Source of the DNA: Thermoplasmata archaeon
GTDB lineage: Archaea; Thermoplasmatota; Thermoplasmata; Thermoplasmatales; Thermoplasmataceae
Direction: 5' to 3'
Assembly (NCBI GenBank): GCA_021810045.1
Contig: JAJZJR010000005.1
Span: 1-64,000 of the forward strand
DNA: 64,000 nucleotides
The notes beneath the pieces are model-generated. The model ran no database searches, was not told where the DNA came from, and was given only the letters and a program-made list of their open reading frames with translations. Within the stretch, counting starts at the first letter, position 1. Each line of letters begins with the position of its first letter. Shown one piece after another: positions 12,909-61,399 of the stretch. The position numbers and the translations under genes are program-made.

Positions 12909-14645
12909 TCAGGGGTCCATATCTCCCTCCAGATACTTAATAAAACCTGCCACAAACTCGTGTATATCTGCAACAATTCCGTAATCCGAATACTGGAATA
13001 TGGGTGCATTTTCATCATTGTTTACTGAAATGATTTTTCCTGCATATCTGATACCAACGACATGATTGGCCTGTCCTGATATCCCCAGAGCAAGGTAAAC
13101 TCCTGGCGATATGGAAATTCCTGTAAGGCCAATCTGCTGCTGTCTTGGGATGAAATTCATGTCAACCAGCGGCCTGGTTGCACCTACGGATGCATCAAGG
13201 AGGCTGGCAAGTTTGAGAATATCCCCAACCTGATCTCTTTTCTTCACTCCACGGCCAAAGCCGATAACAACCTCTTTTGATCCGAGGGGAGCATATTCCG
13301 AGGGAACCGGAGTTTCTTCATGTTTCTCGTAAATCCTTCCCGGACTGTATTCAAGGTCGAATACCTTGGGCACATTAACGGGAACAGCCCTTGGAAACAT
13401 TCCCGGCCTCACGGTGGTCATCTGTGGTTCAGTTTTTGAATATATCTCTGCAATAATTCCACCGCCAAAGGCAGGTTTGTACTGGATTAGTCTTGACTCC
13501 TTTATTTCAAGATCAACACAGTCGGCAGTCAGGCCTGTTTCAAGCCTGGCAGCAATGGTTCCCGCAGCTTCCCTGCCCTTTATGGTTGAAGGGAAGACCA
13601 CATATTTCGGTTTCTTCTCTTTTATGAAATCGGTTAAGGCATCCGTGAACGCCTCAACACTTTCAGTATTGTAAAAATAATACTCATGGCCGGCCAGCCT
13701 GGCACCTGAAGGGTCTAGGTTTCCGAAAAGAACCGCCTTAAGGCTATGTTCATTGGCAAGCTGAGAAATCTTTGTTGAGATTTCCTCTCCCAGCATGGGT
13801 TCGTCCAGCATTATGCCAAGTATGGCTGCGGCATTCTCAGCCGGCTCCTTAAGGTCTATTTTTTCCGCCTGCTGTTCTTTGGCCCTATGGCTCTTTATTA
13901 TCTCATAGATTTCCTGGTATACATTATGATCAAAGGGGAGCATCCTGACTTTCCTGGTACTTTCAAGACTTGATGTTCCTGTAACAACTGTTGGGCTGTA
14001 TTCATTTCCCTTGAAGGGGATTCCCAGGGTTTCTGCATTTAGTTCCCTGATGAGATCAGTTTTATCGGGCACATCAGGCTTGACTGCCCTGGCCCTGTTT
14101 ATTTTCTCGCTTACAGACAGCACTGCAGGAAGAGGGATAGTATATGTTTCAGAACCGCTTTCATTCTCCTGCTCCACCTTCAGGGTTCCCTCTTTTTCAC
14201 CGGGTTCAATCCTCGATACGGACGACTTGAAGGCAAATCCCGAAAAGACAGCTATTTCCGGAGGAACCTGAGCGGTTTCACCGTCAAGTGAATATTTTCC
14301 GGTGAGCACGAGATCAGGCTTTACTTTCATCACGAGAGCAGAAAGGATCTTTGCCGTTGCCAGGGTGTCGGATCCTGCAAAATTCCTGTCCGTAACAAGG
14401 TAAGCTTCATCTATGCCCATCCTAAGGGAATCATTGAGAATTTCCTTTGCCTGAGGCGGCCCCATTGTAGCCACAGCGGTTTCCCACCCAAGCTTCTCCT
14501 TCATCCTGACTGCTTCCTCAACAGCTTTCCTGTCAAAGGAATTCATCGAAAGAGGGACATTTTCCCTCACTATTCTGTTGGTATGAGGATCAAACTTTAC
14601 CTGATTGACATCCGGAATCTGCTTTGCAAAAACAAGGACCTTCAT
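12909..14645 (-). CDS. Fused electron transfer flavoprotein, beta-alpha (EtfBA)
   Basis: One 578-residue chain carries both ETF subunits. EtfB covers residues 1 to about 250 (VLVFAKQIPDVNQVKFDP, GSDTLATA, TGKYSLDGETAQVPPEIA). EtfA covers about 270-578 (FPSTIKGREAAGTIAARL, the FAD motif GATRPLVDMNFIPRQQQIG, then SPGVYLALGISG and NNDENAPIFQYSDYGIVAD). It moves electrons from acyl-CoA or similar dehydrogenases to the membrane. No ETF-quinone oxidoreductase is in the window. A Rieske ferredoxin gene lies just upstream on the same strand, and the 67-base gap between them holds a palindrome and a TATA-like box. Confidence 0.9.
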   Translation of the reverse strand: MKVLVFAKQIPDVNQVKFDPHTNRIVRENVPLSMNSFDRKAVEEAVRMKEKLGWETAVATMGPPQAKEILNDSLRMGIDEAYLVTDRNFAGSDTLATAKILSALVMKVKPDLVLTGKYSLDGETAQVPPEIAVFSGFAFKSSVSRIEPGEKEGTLKVEQENESGSETYTIPLPAVLSVSEKINRARAVKPDVPDKTDLIRELNAETLGIPFKGNEYSPTVVTGTSSLESTRKVRMLPFDHNVYQEIYEIIKSHRAKEQQAEKIDLKEPAENAAAILGIMLDEPMLGEEISTKISQLANEHSLKAVLFGNLDPSGARLAGHEYYFYNTESVEAFTDALTDFIKEKKPKYVVFPSTIKGREAAGTIAARLETGLTADCVDLEIKESRLIQYKPAFGGGIIAEIYSKTEPQMTTVRPGMFPRAVPVNVPKVFDLEYSPGRIYEKHEETPVPSEYAPLGSKEVVIGFGRGVKKRDQVGDILKLASLLDASVGATRPLVDMNFIPRQQQIGLTGISISPGVYLALGISGQANHVVGIRYAGKIISVNNDENAPIFQYSDYGIVADIHEFVAGFIKYLEGDMDP

Positions 14646-14667
14646 GGATCAAAAATAGAATTTTGTT

Positions 14668-14688
14668 ATTTAGTTGTTGACTAAATTA
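14668..14688 (-). promoter_or_regulatory. Palindrome and suf-like word in the etf leader
   Basis: ATTTAGT-TGTTG-ACTAAAT (14668-14686) has perfect 7-base arms. On the minus strand, 14688-14677 reads TAATTTAGTCAA, identical to 56229-56240 in the sufR/sufC control region. A TATA-like TTTATAGG lies just upstream on the minus strand (about 14692-14700), so the palindrome is near the expected transcription start of etf. It is a candidate operator. Confidence 0.5.
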
Positions 14689-14712
14689 GAACCTATAAAA
14701 ATAATGGGAAAA

Positions 14713-15030
14713 TCAGAGTTCAATCATGATTTCGCCGTTCTCAACCTTTGTTTTGTAGGACTTTAGAGGGTCAATGTCTCCAGCACTCTCAGGAGGACTG
14801 ATGACAGAACCATCCTTGGGGTTGAACGTAGCAAAGTGGTTAGGGCAGATGAGCTGATGATCATCCAGGAAACCTTCGGCTAGATCATAATCTTCATGTG
14901 TGCAAAGATGTGATGTTGCGAAATAGTTGTTCCCATCCCTTATGATGAGTATCTCCTTTCCCTCAATATCCGCCTTGAAAAGATCGCCATCTTTCATTGC
15001 TCCTTCTTTCAGTACTTTGTACCAGGTCAT
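14713..15030 (-). CDS. Rieske-type [2Fe-2S] ferredoxin
   Basis: Small soluble electron carrier of 105 residues. The cluster ligands are C43 and H45 in CTHE and C62 and H65 in CPNH, giving C-x-H-x16-C-x2-H as in dioxygenase-type Rieske ferredoxins. There is no signal peptide or membrane helix, so it is cytoplasmic. It lies directly upstream of the fused ETF on the same strand, which suggests a shared electron pathway. No oxygenase is present in the window to serve as its partner. Confidence 0.88.
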   Translation of the reverse strand: MTWYKVLKEGAMKDGDLFKADIEGKEILIIRDGNNYFATSHLCTHEDYDLAEGFLDDHQLICPNHFATFNPKDGSVISPPESAGDIDPLKSYKTKVENGEIMIEL

Positions 15031-55513: not shown

Positions 55514-56191
55514 CTAGTTTATGTTGACCTCAACAACACATTTGTTGTTGCCGTCTGAAAACCTTTCCTTTATGTCGAATTTCTGGTTGATGGAACTTTT
55601 TATGATCTCTGATCCAAGGCTGCTGCATATGATCTTGTTATTGTTCTTTGCAAGTTCGTAGAAAATACAGTTGTGCCTTATGATCCTCACAACATCGTCA
55701 GTGACTTCCAGTCTGGCATAATAACCCAGTTTGTTAAGTGTATCAACGAAGTCATTGAGCCTGGAAATCTTGTCCTCACGTGAGAGTTTCAGGCCATCTT
55801 CTGCTTTGTCCCAACCGGATTCGCTTACAATCTTGTCAGCTACCTTGCCTAGAATTTCATTAACCTTTTCCCTGCCGAACTCGCTCTCAATCTGGTTGAC
55901 AAGCATTGTTGCAAAGGACACATATTTCTTCGGAAGAAGGTTCATTCCCTTTTCAGTCAGTTCGTAGAACTTCCTTGGTCTGCCTGCACCTCCACCTCTG
56001 AAGAATGATTTCACATATCCCTTGAGTTCCAGGTTTTCCATGTGTTCCTTGACCGCATTCTTGTTGATCTTCAAAAGCTGGGACAGGTCATCCATGCTCC
56101 TTTCCGAGTAACTTAACTCAGTAATGATATTCCCCTTAACTTTTCCAAGAAGCATGTTAAGGTCATCATCTACGTCATGGATTGCTTCCAT
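55514..56191 (-). CDS. sufR: SufR-like Fe-S-sensing transcriptional regulator
   Basis: 225 residues. A winged-helix domain (about 15-85: SMDDLSQLLKINKNAVKEHM, GGGAGRPRKFYELTEKG) is followed by a C-terminal domain with cysteines C175 (RHNCIFYELA), C189 (IICSSLG) and C218 (NNKCVVEV). Cyanobacterial SufR has four such cysteines; three are kept here in matching positions. It is divergent from sufC with 99 bases between, so it most likely senses cluster status and represses the suf operon. Confidence 0.85.
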   Translation of the reverse strand: MEAIHDVDDDLNMLLGKVKGNIITELSYSERSMDDLSQLLKINKNAVKEHMENLELKGYVKSFFRGGGAGRPRKFYELTEKGMNLLPKKYVSFATMLVNQIESEFGREKVNEILGKVADKIVSESGWDKAEDGLKLSREDKISRLNDFVDTLNKLGYYARLEVTDDVVRIIRHNCIFYELAKNNNKIICSSLGSEIIKSSINQKFDIKERFSDGNNKCVVEVNIN

Positions 56192-56228
56192 CTTTTATCA
56201 CTAATATTGTATCTCAGAGACGTATTTA

Positions 56229-56268
56229 TAATTTAGTCAATTTAGACATAAGAAAGTGTTTAAATATA
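56229..56268 (+). promoter_or_regulatory. sufR/sufC control region with tandem 9-base repeat
   Basis: ATTTAGTCA (56231-56239) is followed directly by ATTTAGACA (56240-56248), a tandem repeat with one change. On the minus strand it abuts a TATA-like AATTATAAATA (56233-56223) for sufR. On the plus strand it is 10-20 bases before the likely sufC TATA box (TTTAAATATAG, about 56258-56268), which lies about 28 bases before the GTG. A factor bound here could block both genes. The word TAATTTAGTCAA (56229-56240) recurs before etf. Confidence 0.55.
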
Positions 56269-56290
56269 GTTTCCCTATATTCTACCAAAG

Positions 56291-57037
56291 GTGCAAATGG
56301 TGCCGGAACTAAAGATTAAGGATTTAAAAGCGTCCGTGGAGGACAAGGAAATACTGAAAGGGGTAAACCTTACTGTCAAGGGCGGGGAAATGCATGCCCT
56401 GATGGGCCCCAATGGAGCAGGAAAAAGCACACTGGGAAACGTTCTCATTGGCCACCCCAACTATAAGATCACAGGTGGCTCAATTGTACTCGATGGCATA
56501 GATCTAACAGACAAGACACCTGAGGAGAGGGCCAGGGCAGGTCTTTTCCTGGCATTTCAGAGCCCTGTGGCAGTGGTTGGCGTAAAACTGTCAACATTCC
56601 TTAGAACCGCTTACAGGCAGACACACCCGGAAGACAAGGTAACTCTGACCGAGTTCTATGACAGGATGAAAGTCCACATGAAGAAAGTTGGACTTGACGA
56701 ATCTTTCATGTCCAGATCAGTCAATGATGGATTCTCTGGAGGAGAAAGGAAGAGATTCGAGATACTCCAGATGGTCATGCTAAGGCCAAAGATCATAATC
56801 CTGGATGAAATTGACTCAGGACTTGATGTCGATGCATTGAAACTAGTTGCAGACGAGATCAGGGATTATTACAGTGAAAATGTAGGATTTCTCATTATTA
56901 CGCACTACCAGAGGATTCTTAAAAACATTGAGCCTCAGTTCGTGCATGTACTGAAGGATGGAAAAATAGCAGTCGATGGAGACAACAAGCTTTCACTCCG
57001 TATTGAAGAGGAAGGCTACGACTGGATTAAAAATTAA
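56291..57037 (+). CDS. sufC: SufC, ABC-type ATPase of the SUF system
   Basis: Cytosolic ATPase that powers the SufBCD scaffold. Walker A GPNGAGKST (about 38-46), signature GFSGGERKR, Walker B IIILDEIDSGLD, H-loop ITHYQRIL. 248 residues, full length. GTG start (or ATG two codons on). It leads a six-gene operon with very small gaps. Confidence 0.94.
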   Translation: MQMVPELKIKDLKASVEDKEILKGVNLTVKGGEMHALMGPNGAGKSTLGNVLIGHPNYKITGGSIVLDGIDLTDKTPEERARAGLFLAFQSPVAVVGVKLSTFLRTAYRQTHPEDKVTLTEFYDRMKVHMKKVGLDESFMSRSVNDGFSGGERKRFEILQMVMLRPKIIILDEIDSGLDVDALKLVADEIRDYYSENVGFLIITHYQRILKNIEPQFVHVLKDGKIAVDGDNKLSLRIEEEGYDWIKN

Positions 57038-57049: not shown

Positions 57050-58498
57050 ATGGAAGTAGAATACAGCAAGGATGCAGAAATGGAAAAACTCCTGGAAGAC
57101 CTCAAGAATTCAAACGTAAAGAAAGAGGACTGGGAGTTCCACGACAATTACAAGCCTGTATATTCAACAGGCAATGGTCTAAACAGGAAAGTAGTGGAAG
57201 AAATTTCTGAAATTAAGAAAGAACCGGACTGGATGAGGAGATTCAGGCTCAAGGCACTGGAGATCTTTGAATCAAAGCCCGTCCCAACCTGGGGACCGGA
57301 TCTCTCAGGCATAGACTGGGAAAACACAAATTACTACAACAGGCCGGATGAAGTCAACGCAAACAACTGGGACGACGTTCCGGATGAAATCAAGGAAACA
57401 TTCAACAAGCTGGGTGTTCCTGAAATGGAACAGAAATACCTTGCAGGTTCAGTTGCACAGTACGACAGTGAAGGCGTATACCACAGCCTGAAGAAAGTCT
57501 GGGAGGACAAGGGTGTTGTGTTCATGGATCTTGACTCAGCGCTCAGGGAACATCCCGACCTCGTAAAGGATTATTTCTGCAAAGCAGTTCCTGCAACTGA
57601 CAACAAATTTGCGGCCCTCAATGCAGCAGTTTGGAGTGGAGGGTCATTCCTTTACGTTCCAAAAGGTGTCAAGATTGACATGCCGCTCCAGACATATTTC
57701 AGGATGAATGGAGAAGCAACAGGTCAGTTTGAGCACACAATCGTTGTTGCAGATGAAGGATCTAAAGTACACTACATAGAGGGATGCACAGCACCAAGAT
57801 ACGACAAGAACTCACTGCACAGTGCAATTGTTGAAATTTACGTCAAGAAGAATGCCCAGGCCAGATATACCAGCGTCCAGAACTGGTCAAAGAGCGTCTA
57901 CAACATGCCAACCAAGAGGGCATGGGTTGACGAAAACGCAAACATGGAATGGGTAGGCGGATCACTTGGTTCAAAGGTTACAATGCTGTACCCATCATCA
58001 TATCTCAGAGGACCCTACGCAACTACACATAACCTCAATGTTTCACTGGCAGGACCTGGAACAGTCAAGGACACAGGAGCAAAAGCACTTCACCTTGCAC
58101 CTCACACAAGTTCAAGGATCATTGCAAAGAGTATCAGTATAGAAGATGGAAAGGCCATTTACAGAGGTCTGCTGAGAATGAACAAGGGAGCAGAGCACTC
58201 AAGAAGCCATGTTCAGTGTGACGCACTTCTTATAAACGACAATTCAACAAGCTACACATATCCACACGATGAGATATATGAACCAACGGCAACCTTCGGA
58301 CATGAAGCGACTGTAGGAAGGATCGGAACAGAGGAACTCACCTATCTGAGGTCAAGAGGCCTGAGCGAAGATGAGGCAAGCTCAATGATCGTACTTGGTT
58401 TCCTCGATGATGTCATGAAGGAAATTCCAATGGAATTTGCTGTTGAAATGAACCGGCTCATCAAACTTGAAATGAACAAGCTTGGCGCAGTAGGATGA
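57050..58498 (+). CDS. sufB: SufB, Fe-S cluster assembly scaffold
   Basis: 482 residues, full length. It has EGCTAPRYDKNSLHSAIVEI, VQNWSKSVYN and a right-handed parallel beta-helix. The Cys in SHVQCDALLIND corresponds to the essential scaffold cysteine of SufB. GSKVTMLYPSSYLRG and HEATVGRIGTEELTYLRSRG mark the C-terminal part. It works with SufC and SufD. Confidence 0.95.
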   Translation: MEVEYSKDAEMEKLLEDLKNSNVKKEDWEFHDNYKPVYSTGNGLNRKVVEEISEIKKEPDWMRRFRLKALEIFESKPVPTWGPDLSGIDWENTNYYNRPDEVNANNWDDVPDEIKETFNKLGVPEMEQKYLAGSVAQYDSEGVYHSLKKVWEDKGVVFMDLDSALREHPDLVKDYFCKAVPATDNKFAALNAAVWSGGSFLYVPKGVKIDMPLQTYFRMNGEATGQFEHTIVVADEGSKVHYIEGCTAPRYDKNSLHSAIVEIYVKKNAQARYTSVQNWSKSVYNMPTKRAWVDENANMEWVGGSLGSKVTMLYPSSYLRGPYATTHNLNVSLAGPGTVKDTGAKALHLAPHTSSRIIAKSISIEDGKAIYRGLLRMNKGAEHSRSHVQCDALLINDNSTSYTYPHDEIYEPTATFGHEATVGRIGTEELTYLRSRGLSEDEASSMIVLGFLDDVMKEIPMEFAVEMNRLIKLEMNKLGAVG

Positions 58499-58504
58499 TC
58501 TTTC

Positions 58505-59752
58505 ATGGAGAGCTATCCAGAAACACTAAAAACAAGGCTTAACGACGAAGCATACGAATACAGGAGGGATGCATTTCTTGCATTCCTCAAGAGTCCCGTA
58601 AGAAATTACAAGGAAAGTCCAACAGTCAAGGATTACGTAGAGATAACAGACGATGAACTGCAGGAAATGCTTTACGGAGAGATGAAGGAGTCGAAGGAAT
58701 CCCCAGTTTTCTCTGAAACTGCAAATCTTAAAGTATTCAACGAAGAGATCACAGTATCTGATGAGCTCCTGAAGGAAGGTGTTGTTGTCACAACCATGGA
58801 AGATGCCCTCAAGACCCAGCCGGAACTGGTGAAGAAGTACGTCTTCCCGAGACTTGGAAAAGAGAGGATCGAGTTTCTCATTAACTCTGCCTGGAGAAAC
58901 GGGCTGTTCATATATGTTCCGGACAGCAGTAAAGTTTCAATCAGGGCACACACAATAAACAATTCCTCTGCATCCTTTGCCTCCAAGACCGTGATCATTT
59001 ACGGAAAGGAATCAAAGGTGAGATACACCGACACATACTCTACTATTGGCCAGGGAACAGGAATCCATGGAAAGAACATCTACTTCTTCGGTGGGGAATC
59101 CTCAAAGTTCGACTACCTGTATCTACAGGACAAGAGTGAAGGTGTAAGGGATATCACATTTGTTAAACAGTACCTTGAGAAATTTGCAGAATTCCAGTTC
59201 TTCCACATTAACCATGGAAGCTCAAAGACCCTGTTCGTTGACGAATCCCAGCAAACCGGAAACGGTTCATCATTCCGCGTCTACGGGGTAAACTTCAGCA
59301 CCGGAAACCAGAAGATGGACATCAGGGACAGCAGCTTCCAGGAGGGAGAGGAATCCAATGCGGATATCCAGGTTCGAGGTGTAGTAACCGGCAGCAGTTC
59401 AACCATCCACAGGGGTAACATTGACCTTGAGGAAAAGGCAATAAAAGCTACAGGCTTCTATGACTCAAAGATCCTTCTCCTCTCAAAGGACGGATTTGCA
59501 AACAGCAAACCGGGTCTTGAGATCAAGAATGCAAACACCAGATCAAAGCACGGTTCATCAATTAGCAACGTGGACGAGGAACAGATATTCTACCTCAGAT
59601 CCAGGGGTATTGATGATCAGGTTGCAAGAGGCATGGTAACTGCAGGGTTCGTAGGCTCCATTATAGAAAAAGCTAATGACGAAGAGTTTACCCGTAAGGT
59701 TTACCAATATGCAGAGAGTCTAGGTGCCAATGCTTTCCTGGCAACAAATTAA
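58505..59752 (+). CDS. sufD: SufD, Fe-S cluster assembly scaffold
   Basis: 415 residues. It has the beta-helix core with RGVVTGSSSTIHRGNIDLEE and the C-terminal KHGSSISNVDEEQIFYLRSRG shared with SufB, but no scaffold Cys. It partners SufB and SufC. Its last 29 bases overlap the start of sufS, and its stop codon is at the base of a hairpin (59751-59768). Confidence 0.93.
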   Translation: MESYPETLKTRLNDEAYEYRRDAFLAFLKSPVRNYKESPTVKDYVEITDDELQEMLYGEMKESKESPVFSETANLKVFNEEITVSDELLKEGVVVTTMEDALKTQPELVKKYVFPRLGKERIEFLINSAWRNGLFIYVPDSSKVSIRAHTINNSSASFASKTVIIYGKESKVRYTDTYSTIGQGTGIHGKNIYFFGGESSKFDYLYLQDKSEGVRDITFVKQYLEKFAEFQFFHINHGSSKTLFVDESQQTGNGSSFRVYGVNFSTGNQKMDIRDSSFQEGEESNADIQVRGVVTGSSSTIHRGNIDLEEKAIKATGFYDSKILLLSKDGFANSKPGLEIKNANTRSKHGSSISNVDEEQIFYLRSRGIDDQVARGMVTAGFVGSIIEKANDEEFTRKVYQYAESLGANAFLATN

Positions 59753-61007
59753 GGGGGATTTCCCCCTTCTTATTAATAAAGGCAAAAATCTTATTTTTCT
59801 TGACAACGCAGCAACCACACAGAAACCTAAGCAGGTTATAGATGCCATTGTTGATTATTACACAAACTGGAACAGCAACGTACGCCGCGGCATTTACAGG
59901 TTAAGTGAAGAGGCAACGGATCATTATGAAAAATCAAGGGAGAACATTTCCAATTTTATAGGTTCAAGCGACCCAAGACAGCTTGCTTTCGTTAGAAACA
60001 CTACAGAAGCACTGAATCTGCTGGCCTATTCCATGGGGCATAACCTCCATGAAGGGGATGAAATTCTGCTTACAATAATGGAACATCATTCCAACATTGT
60101 TCCATGGCAGTTCCTACAGGAAAAGGGCGTGAAACTGAAATTTGCCGACATAAATGAGGACGGAACTCTTGATATGGAGGATTTCAGGAACAAGCTCACC
60201 AGGAAGACAAAAGTTGTATCGGTTACGCACTGCTCAAATCTGCTTGGAACCATAAATGATGCAGCGGAACTGGCAAAACTTGCACACGACAACGGCTCCC
60301 TATTCATCCTTGATGGTGCCCAGAGCGTACCACACATGCCAGTAGATGTGGAAAAGCTGGACTGCGATTTTCTCGCCTTCTCAGGCCATAAAATGCTGGG
60401 CCCAATGGGAATTGGCGTTCTTTACGGGAAATACGATCTGCTGAACGGACTGCCGCCATTCAATGGGGGCGGAGAGATGATCAGCCAGGTTTACACGGAT
60501 CATTCAACCTATGCAGACGCTCCTGAAAAATTTGAGGCAGGAACTCCAAATGTTGAGGGTGCAATCGGCTTATCGGCAGCAGTGGATTATCTCCGTAACA
60601 TAGGAATGGATGAGGTCAGGTCACACGAAAAGGACCTAATCTCATATACCCTGAAGAAAGAGGAGGAACACCATATTGACATCCTGAAGTCTTATGGACC
60701 CAGGGATATGGAGAAAAGGGGTGGTATTTATACATTCAATCTCGGTGAATTCAATCCTCTTTCCATGAGTGAAGGCCTCATCAACGAGCAGATCAGGGTT
60801 GGAAGCAATGTTCATCCGCACGATGTCGCTACCGGACTGGACTCAAGCAATGTTGCTGTCAGGGCAGGCCACCACTGTGCAATGCCCCTCACCCACAGGC
60901 TTAATGTTGTAGCAACCTCCAGGGCTTCATATTACATTTATAACTCCAGAGAGGATGTTGATCTGCTCTTTGAATCCCTGGAAAAAATCAGGAGACTTTA
61001 CGCATGA
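59724..61007 (+). CDS. sufS: SufS, cysteine desulfurase
   Basis: Takes sulfur from cysteine for cluster assembly. PLP Lys in SGHKMLGPMG, persulfide Cys in GHHCAMPLTHRL, and MEHHSNIVPWQ. About 427 residues from the GTG at 59724, or ATG 59730. It overlaps sufD by 29 bases and sufU by 4 (ATGA), so translation is coupled. Confidence 0.95.
   Translation: MPMLSWQQIKGDFPLLINKGKNLIFLDNAATTQKPKQVIDAIVDYYTNWNSNVRRGIYRLSEEATDHYEKSRENISNFIGSSDPRQLAFVRNTTEALNLLAYSMGHNLHEGDEILLTIMEHHSNIVPWQFLQEKGVKLKFADINEDGTLDMEDFRNKLTRKTKVVSVTHCSNLLGTINDAAELAKLAHDNGSLFILDGAQSVPHMPVDVEKLDCDFLAFSGHKMLGPMGIGVLYGKYDLLNGLPPFNGGGEMISQVYTDHSTYADAPEKFEAGTPNVEGAIGLSAAVDYLRNIGMDEVRSHEKDLISYTLKKEEEHHIDILKSYGPRDMEKRGGIYTFNLGEFNPLSMSEGLINEQIRVGSNVHPHDVATGLDSSNVAVRAGHHCAMPLTHRLNVVATSRASYYIYNSREDVDLLFESLEKIRRLYA
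59751..59768 (+). repeat. Hairpin at the sufD/sufS junction
   Basis: AAGGGGGA-TT-TCCCCCTT has perfect 8-base arms, starts in the sufD stop codon, and lies about 20-27 bases inside sufS. It could slow ribosomes or protect mRNA between scaffold and desulfurase genes. It is also constrained by coding for KGDFPLL. Confidence 0.45.
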
Positions 61008-61399
61008 CAGATGAGGAAATAAGTACCGAAATACTTCTGGATCATTACAGGAACCCGCATAATTATGGGCAGATTGAAGATGCAAACGAGAAGCTTATTG
61101 AGTTCAATCCTGTATGCGGAGACACTGTACAGATAACAATCAGGATTGAGAATGACGTGGTTACTGACATTAAATTCATTGGCCGCGGATGTTCCGTGAG
61201 TCAGGGAAGTGCCTCCATGCTCACCGATAAGGTCAAGGGAATGAACATCGGGGAGATCAAGAAAATAAATCAGGAAGATATCCTGAACATGCTTGGACTC
61301 AAACTTGGTCCCAGCAGGGAGAAATGTGCACTTCTCTCCCTGAATGCACTGCACAAATGCATATCAAACCACGAAAAGAAGACTCATGGAGGAAACTGA
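61004..61399 (+). CDS. sufU: SufU/IscU-like Fe-S scaffold or sulfur acceptor
   Basis: 131 residues. The three conserved cysteines are in NPVCGDT, GRGCSVSQGSASM and SREKCALL, with the Asp after the first. YRNPHNYGQIE is the typical N-terminus. It accepts sulfur from SufS. It overlaps sufS by 4 bases and the downstream ferredoxin by 14. Confidence 0.92.
   Translation: MTDEEISTEILLDHYRNPHNYGQIEDANEKLIEFNPVCGDTVQITIRIENDVVTDIKFIGRGCSVSQGSASMLTDKVKGMNIGEIKKINQEDILNMLGLKLGPSREKCALLSLNALHKCISNHEKKTHGGN

Follow-up and report, generated by a model that had tools for sequence, protein, structure and literature searches.

A strongly conserved element, confined to families that have a SufR-like regulator, lies between the gene for that regulator (sufR) and the divergent suf operon. 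Judged from its sequence and setting, this sufR-sufC intergenic element is very probably the operator of the SufR-like protein, which would repress suf and its own gene in a cluster-sensing manner and to which sufT would have been added as a target in relatives. The region belongs to the window, by which we mean the whole stretch of DNA analyzed here, 64,000 nucleotides from the contig of a Thermoplasmata archaeon. The initial annotation of the window had noted that a 12-base word, TAATTTAGTCAA, is shared by the suf and etf control regions and had proposed that the same regulator also governs the fused etf gene.

The SufR-like protein and the suf genes

The regulator gene and the suf operon are arranged as follows.

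55514..56191, minus strand: SufR-like regulator, 225 aa, with a winged helix-turn-helix and cysteines C175, C189 and C218; TIGR02702 SufR match at E=4.6e-9, below the cut-off
56291..57037, plus strand: sufC, first gene of the suf operon; TIGR01978 sufC match above the cut-off
57050..58498, plus strand: sufB; Pfam SUFBD_core
58505..59752, plus strand: sufD; Pfam SUFBD_core
59724..61007, plus strand: sufS-like cysteine desulfurase; Pfam Aminotran_5
61004..61399, plus strand: sufU/IscU-like scaffold; Pfam NifU_N

The match to TIGR02702 (SufR_cyano), an equivalog model for cyanobacteria, covers residues 26-182 and scores 36.3 bits against a curated cut-off of 178.8; all 44 aligned members match it at E<=0.001. 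A winged helix is indicated by PadR/ArsR/HTH matches below the gathering score and by winged-helix relatives of solved structure. C175 and C189 are invariant in the alignment (A3) and C218 is conserved in at least 90% of members, with the third cysteine displaced by about two columns in a second family of the order. The SufR-like regulator with three cysteines described in the initial annotation is therefore borne out, its cysteines being conserved and its gene divergent from suf. The cysteine spacing, C175-X13-C189-X28-C218, has each gap one residue longer than that of Mycobacterium tuberculosis Rv1460 (C203-X12-C216-X27-C244), whose function depends on these residues (PMC6034842), and by analogy we infer a putative cluster-binding site made up of the three cysteines. 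The AlphaFold model (mean pLDDT 71, pTM 0.45) is confident in the DNA-binding half alone and weak in the cysteine domain, and a fold search with this weak model returned mostly winged-helix matches of low TM-score.

A conserved element between two divergent promoters

The control region contains these features, in order along the plus strand.

56223..56230, minus strand: sufR TATA box TATAAATA, a conserved TATA-like block at alignment positions -34..-27, with a conserved AT 18-19 nt downstream
56232..56239, plus strand: upstream half-site-like element TTTAGTCA, the core of the shared word; 9 bp before the left arm and adjoining the sufR TATA box
56241..56264, plus strand: predicted minimal operator, the inverted repeat TTTAGACA-N8-TGTTTAAA (consensus TTTARACA-N8-TGTTTAAA); conserved in two families, and present before sufT in 10 relatives
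56259..56266, plus strand: sufC TATA box TTTAAATA, which overlaps with the right arm of the predicted operator; exactly this box is present in 23 of the 24 family promoters aligned, and TTTATATA in the other

Alignment of these 24 home-family promoters, with the first T of TGTTTAAATA as position 0, revealed a footprint of about 44 bp (-34 to +9; window 56223-56266) in which most positions carry 1-2 bits. Outside it, conservation is near background, apart from one AT pair per TATA box, located 18-19 nt downstream of the first base of the box (on the sufC side, 56277-56278). The blocks run from the sufR TATA box on the reverse strand through TTTAGTCA to TTTARACA 9 bp on, an 8-bp spacer and TGTTTAAATA, the last eight bases of which are the sufC TATA box; the full element TTTARACA-N8-TGTTTAAATA thus sits between two divergent TATA boxes. 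In the home family the upstream position usually reads TTTAGTCA or a close variant, and the block is present in every member read; model R1, searched against 25 family genomes, had its top match in each of them in the sufR-sufC intergenic region. In the second family this position is degenerate (TTTTATTR/TTTTATCA) and only the TTTARACA-like arm, the spacer and the right arm are well kept, so the minimal conserved unit is TTTARACA-N8-TGTTTAAA. The shared word would then correspond mainly to an accessory upstream element.

The distribution of the element was determined by scanning 117 genomes of the order with the pattern TTTARACA-N8-TGTTTAAATA, allowing at most one mismatch. It is present in 66 of 77 home-family genomes, where the reversed-pattern control gave 3 matches, and in 15/15 genomes of the second family, in five of which the flanking DNA was read and the SufR-like gene confirmed beside the site every time. 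None of the 25 genomes of four other families, which apparently lack the SufR-like gene, contains it at this threshold. A SufR protein search (E<=0.001) of 11 of these 25 genomes gave no match in 10 and, in the remaining one (G028), two weak matches and nothing else. The element is likewise absent from all nine SufC-orthologue promoters read in the four families and from a more distant SufC-like locus (L097, 35% identity). Within the genome under study, the suf site is the only match at one mismatch or fewer; at up to three mismatches the operator pattern gives 59 matches vs 133 for the reversed control. A different motif, similar to TACAAAA-n(2)-TTTAwAT, is common to several of the sufC upstream regions L088-L092. 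These come from family f4, in which no SufR was detected, and the motif may represent a core promoter or an operator of another kind.

Part of the footprint conservation surely reflects the core promoter, that is, the two TATA boxes and their flanks. Indeed, both TATA boxes and the AT pairs beyond them fall within or beside the footprint, as they would if the block were merely two back-to-back core promoters (BRE plus TATA) serving the basal machinery with no specific regulator. However, the element tracks the regulator-bearing families and is missing from the nine sufC promoters where the regulator was not found or only weakly matched. Moreover, sufT is precisely where the 26-bp element turns up again, as described below. 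Nor does TTTAGTCA qualify as a general BRE: in the 38 promoters of the window that were anchored, the bases preceding TATA are only weakly biased toward A. We therefore consider a purely basal origin of the block unlikely.

Could the ligand of the element instead be some other protein, such as a regulator that responds to iron or redox state, with the SufR-like gene merely adjacent? The genome does hold other winged-helix paralogues (a second, weak match), but the element and the SufR-like gene have the same family distribution, and the gene is adjacent to and divergent from sufC in all 29 loci whose contig carries both genes and whose spacer was read. In addition, the promoter of the SufR-like gene itself abuts the site, which is typical of autoregulation. 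A foreign regulator thus seems very unlikely, and we favor the SufR-like protein as the ligand of the element.

A mechanism can be proposed on this basis. The SufR-like protein would bind TTTARACA-N8-TGTTTAAA, an inverted repeat, as a dimer. Since the sufC TATA box is contained in the right arm, and that of sufR is directly flanked by the left arm together with TTTAGTCA, the bound protein would keep TBP/TFB off both divergent promoters; suf and, through autoregulation, sufR would be repressed. By analogy with bacterial SufR, the three cysteines (C-X13-C-X28-C) may hold an Fe-S cluster, whose loss under iron or oxidative stress would relieve repression. In the Ferroplasma/Acidiplasma relatives, the same site before sufT would bring sufT into the regulon.

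sufT and etf as candidate further targets

When the home-family sites were placed by tblastn, every one proved to lie in the sufR-sufC spacer or immediately upstream of sufT, the latter in 10 genomes. The sufT-linked sites belong to two genera of the Ferroplasma/Acidiplasma group. In these, the sequence becomes conserved abruptly from the left arm onward, and there is no TTTAGTCA. The downstream gene encodes a DUF59 Fe-S assembly protein (PF01883 and TIGR02945 matches); earlier work links sufT to suf operons and takes Thermoplasma Ta0200 as a reference (PMC4982691). In genus g6, probably the Thermoplasma group, sufT lies directly behind sufR. Follow-up of weak model matches bore out one alone, that in G014, which is sufT; those in G016, G001, G023, G007 and G002 led to no convincing Fe-S target and were set aside. 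The DNA upstream of sufT in G023 (L142) has the right arm TGTTTAAATA with a degenerate left arm, and from its sequence is a possible intermediate of the sufT operator.

The assembly studied here has two sufT-like genes (G000:C73:17055-17348 and G000:C56:1165-1458), which are 86% and 82% identical, respectively, to the SufT query from G014; each family relative searched has a single one. At 2.26 Mb the assembly is larger than those of genus mates (1.3-1.9 Mb), so a duplicate or stray contig is possible. The sufT promoter read in this genome (C73) is without the operator element and no other genomic site matches at one mismatch or fewer, so the predicted regulon here comprises suf and sufR only.

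The following features were assigned at etf.

14677..14688, minus strand: second copy of TAATTTAGTCAA, upstream of etf; judged a chance match
14666..14673, minus strand: probable etf TATA box CTAAATAA, the right palindrome arm; 28 nt before the ATG and kept in the genus as CTAAATAAC/CTATATATC

The initial annotation described the word itself accurately. TAATTTAGTCAA occurs at 56229-56240 (+) and 14688-14677 (-), and these are the sole exact copies in the 2,258,164-base genome, both of them upstream of genes. The suf region around it reads TATTTATAATTTAGTCAATTTAGACATAAGAAAGTGTTTAAATA and contains the tandem repeat ATTTAGTCA/ATTTAGACA with a 9-bp period; the etf region, on the minus strand, reads TAATTTAGTCAACAACTAAATAAC and contains the palindrome ATTTAGT-TGTTG-ACTAAAT. 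As a marker of a regulon, however, the word is ruled out by chance expectation, by the genome-wide control and by its lack of conservation at etf. Different intergenic stretches of the window have six 12-mers in common, vs a mean of 4.6 under a null of first-order Markov sequence matched in lengths and composition to the 43 intergenic stretches (5,470 bases) of the window, and 95% of the simulated sets contain at least one. Because random intergenic sequence yields about 4.6 such words, the sharing of TAATTTAGTCAA is by itself uninformative. Genome-wide, its matches at one mismatch or fewer number 8, fewer than the 18 of the reversed control.

ETF matches were obtained in 35/41 genomes, and etf upstream DNA was read at 25 loci (the genome's own gene, 23 relatives with a full-length fused gene, and L063, a partial gene match). 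The word is upstream of etf in none of the 23 relatives, five of which are of the same genus. The expectation that it would be conserved in the promoters of relatives thus holds at suf, where it falls within the conserved block, and fails at etf. In the five genus members, the start-proximal half of the region is retained, reading CTAAATAAC or CTATATATC followed by ATTTTT ahead of the ATG, and the half corresponding to TAATTTAGTCAA, the left palindrome arm, is variable. The kept half includes CTAAATAA, which we take to be the probable etf TATA box because it lies 28 nt before the ATG; the etf transcript leader would then probably be short or absent.

Scored with the suf-element profile, the etf word reaches just 4.5 bits, for which E is about 3 in the window by itself, and a scan of the genome with the operator pattern TTTARACA-N8-TGTTTAAA found no match at etf or at the Rieske gene. 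Moreover, this minimal element, which the suf and sufT promoters have in common, excludes the word. In many relatives etf lies directly 3' of the Rieske gene and there is therefore no room for a separate etf promoter. Control of the fused etf gene by the SufR-like protein through TAATTTAGTCAA, perhaps as a species-specific addition, is accordingly highly improbable even with two exact copies before genes, and the copy at etf most plausibly arose by chance. The broader idea of an Fe-S regulon extending beyond suf survives in altered form: the sequences point to a regulon whose second target, in relatives, is sufT and of which etf is not a member.

Two further observations concern the etf locus (12909-15030). 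The Rieske gene immediately precedes fused etf in many family members; the two are further apart in this genome, and in three close genus mates no Rieske gene was detected in the roughly 1.5 kb before etf. One genus member has, besides an 81% orthologue, a second full-length fused ETF gene (G001:C60:13217-14941) with 57% identity to that of the window.

Comparison with known regulators

The analysis thereby predicts, for iron-rich acidophiles, a SufR-like regulator together with the precise operator it would bind and a second target gene. Among such organisms are isolates (Ferroplasma acidarmanus, Acidiplasma aeolicum), so that a single protein and a short piece of probe DNA would suffice for a test of the idea. 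Operator gain at sufT in two genera would be a clean case of a regulon growing by one gene. The fuller proposition, a previously undescribed archaeal SufR regulon in which a cluster-sensing repressor has its half-site within the TATA box of its targets, a new operator copy has brought in the unlinked sufT of the Ferroplasma/Acidiplasma relatives and TTTAGTCA, as a third half-site, tunes sufR autoregulation, we regard as evenly balanced.

A 2021 review gives Cyanobacteria and some Actinobacteria as the only sources of SufR; in these bacteria the protein represses while it carries its cluster, and repression is lifted once the cluster is lost (PMC8593673). We found no study of an archaeal SufR, Thermoplasmatales included, in the open-licence literature. 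Like the bacterial proteins (sll0088, Rv1460, Streptomyces avermitilis SufR), the archaeal one is a winged-helix regulator encoded beside suf, an arrangement that is often divergent; its C-terminal cysteines have nearly the spacing of Rv1460, its predicted operator is an inverted repeat overlapping promoter elements, and autoregulation is presumed. Unlike them, it faces an archaeal TATA/BRE promoter, scores far under the curated cut-off and has a separate sufT target in two genera. The predicted operator, TTTARACA-N8-TGTTTAAA, also differs from the bacterial CAAC-N6-GTTG, its arms being 4 bp wider apart if AAC/GTT are taken as cores. The bacterial operator is absent at suf: CAAC-N6-GTTG has no match in 56192-56290, even with one mismatch. 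A perfect copy at 55534-55547, inside the 3' end of sufR, is probably due to chance, although near-matches in the window are slightly more frequent than in shuffles (37 vs 25). Given the curated score and the absent bacterial operator, we class the protein as an archaeal variant resembling SufR and not as an established SufR.

IscR, of the Rrf2 family, likewise exerts Fe-S cluster-dependent control over cluster-assembly operons; Rrf2 was not among the families matched by the regulator in family profile searches. The best solved-structure matches of its DNA-binding half are Pyrococcus Phr and PadR/ArsR-type winged-helix regulators, a likeness mainly limited to the winged helix and with different targets. 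Finally, the second target belongs to the same Fe-S assembly family as SufT (DUF59/MIP18; Ta0200 of Thermoplasma acidophilum), and in the Ferroplasma/Acidiplasma relatives sufT lies away from suf, yet with the same predicted operator.
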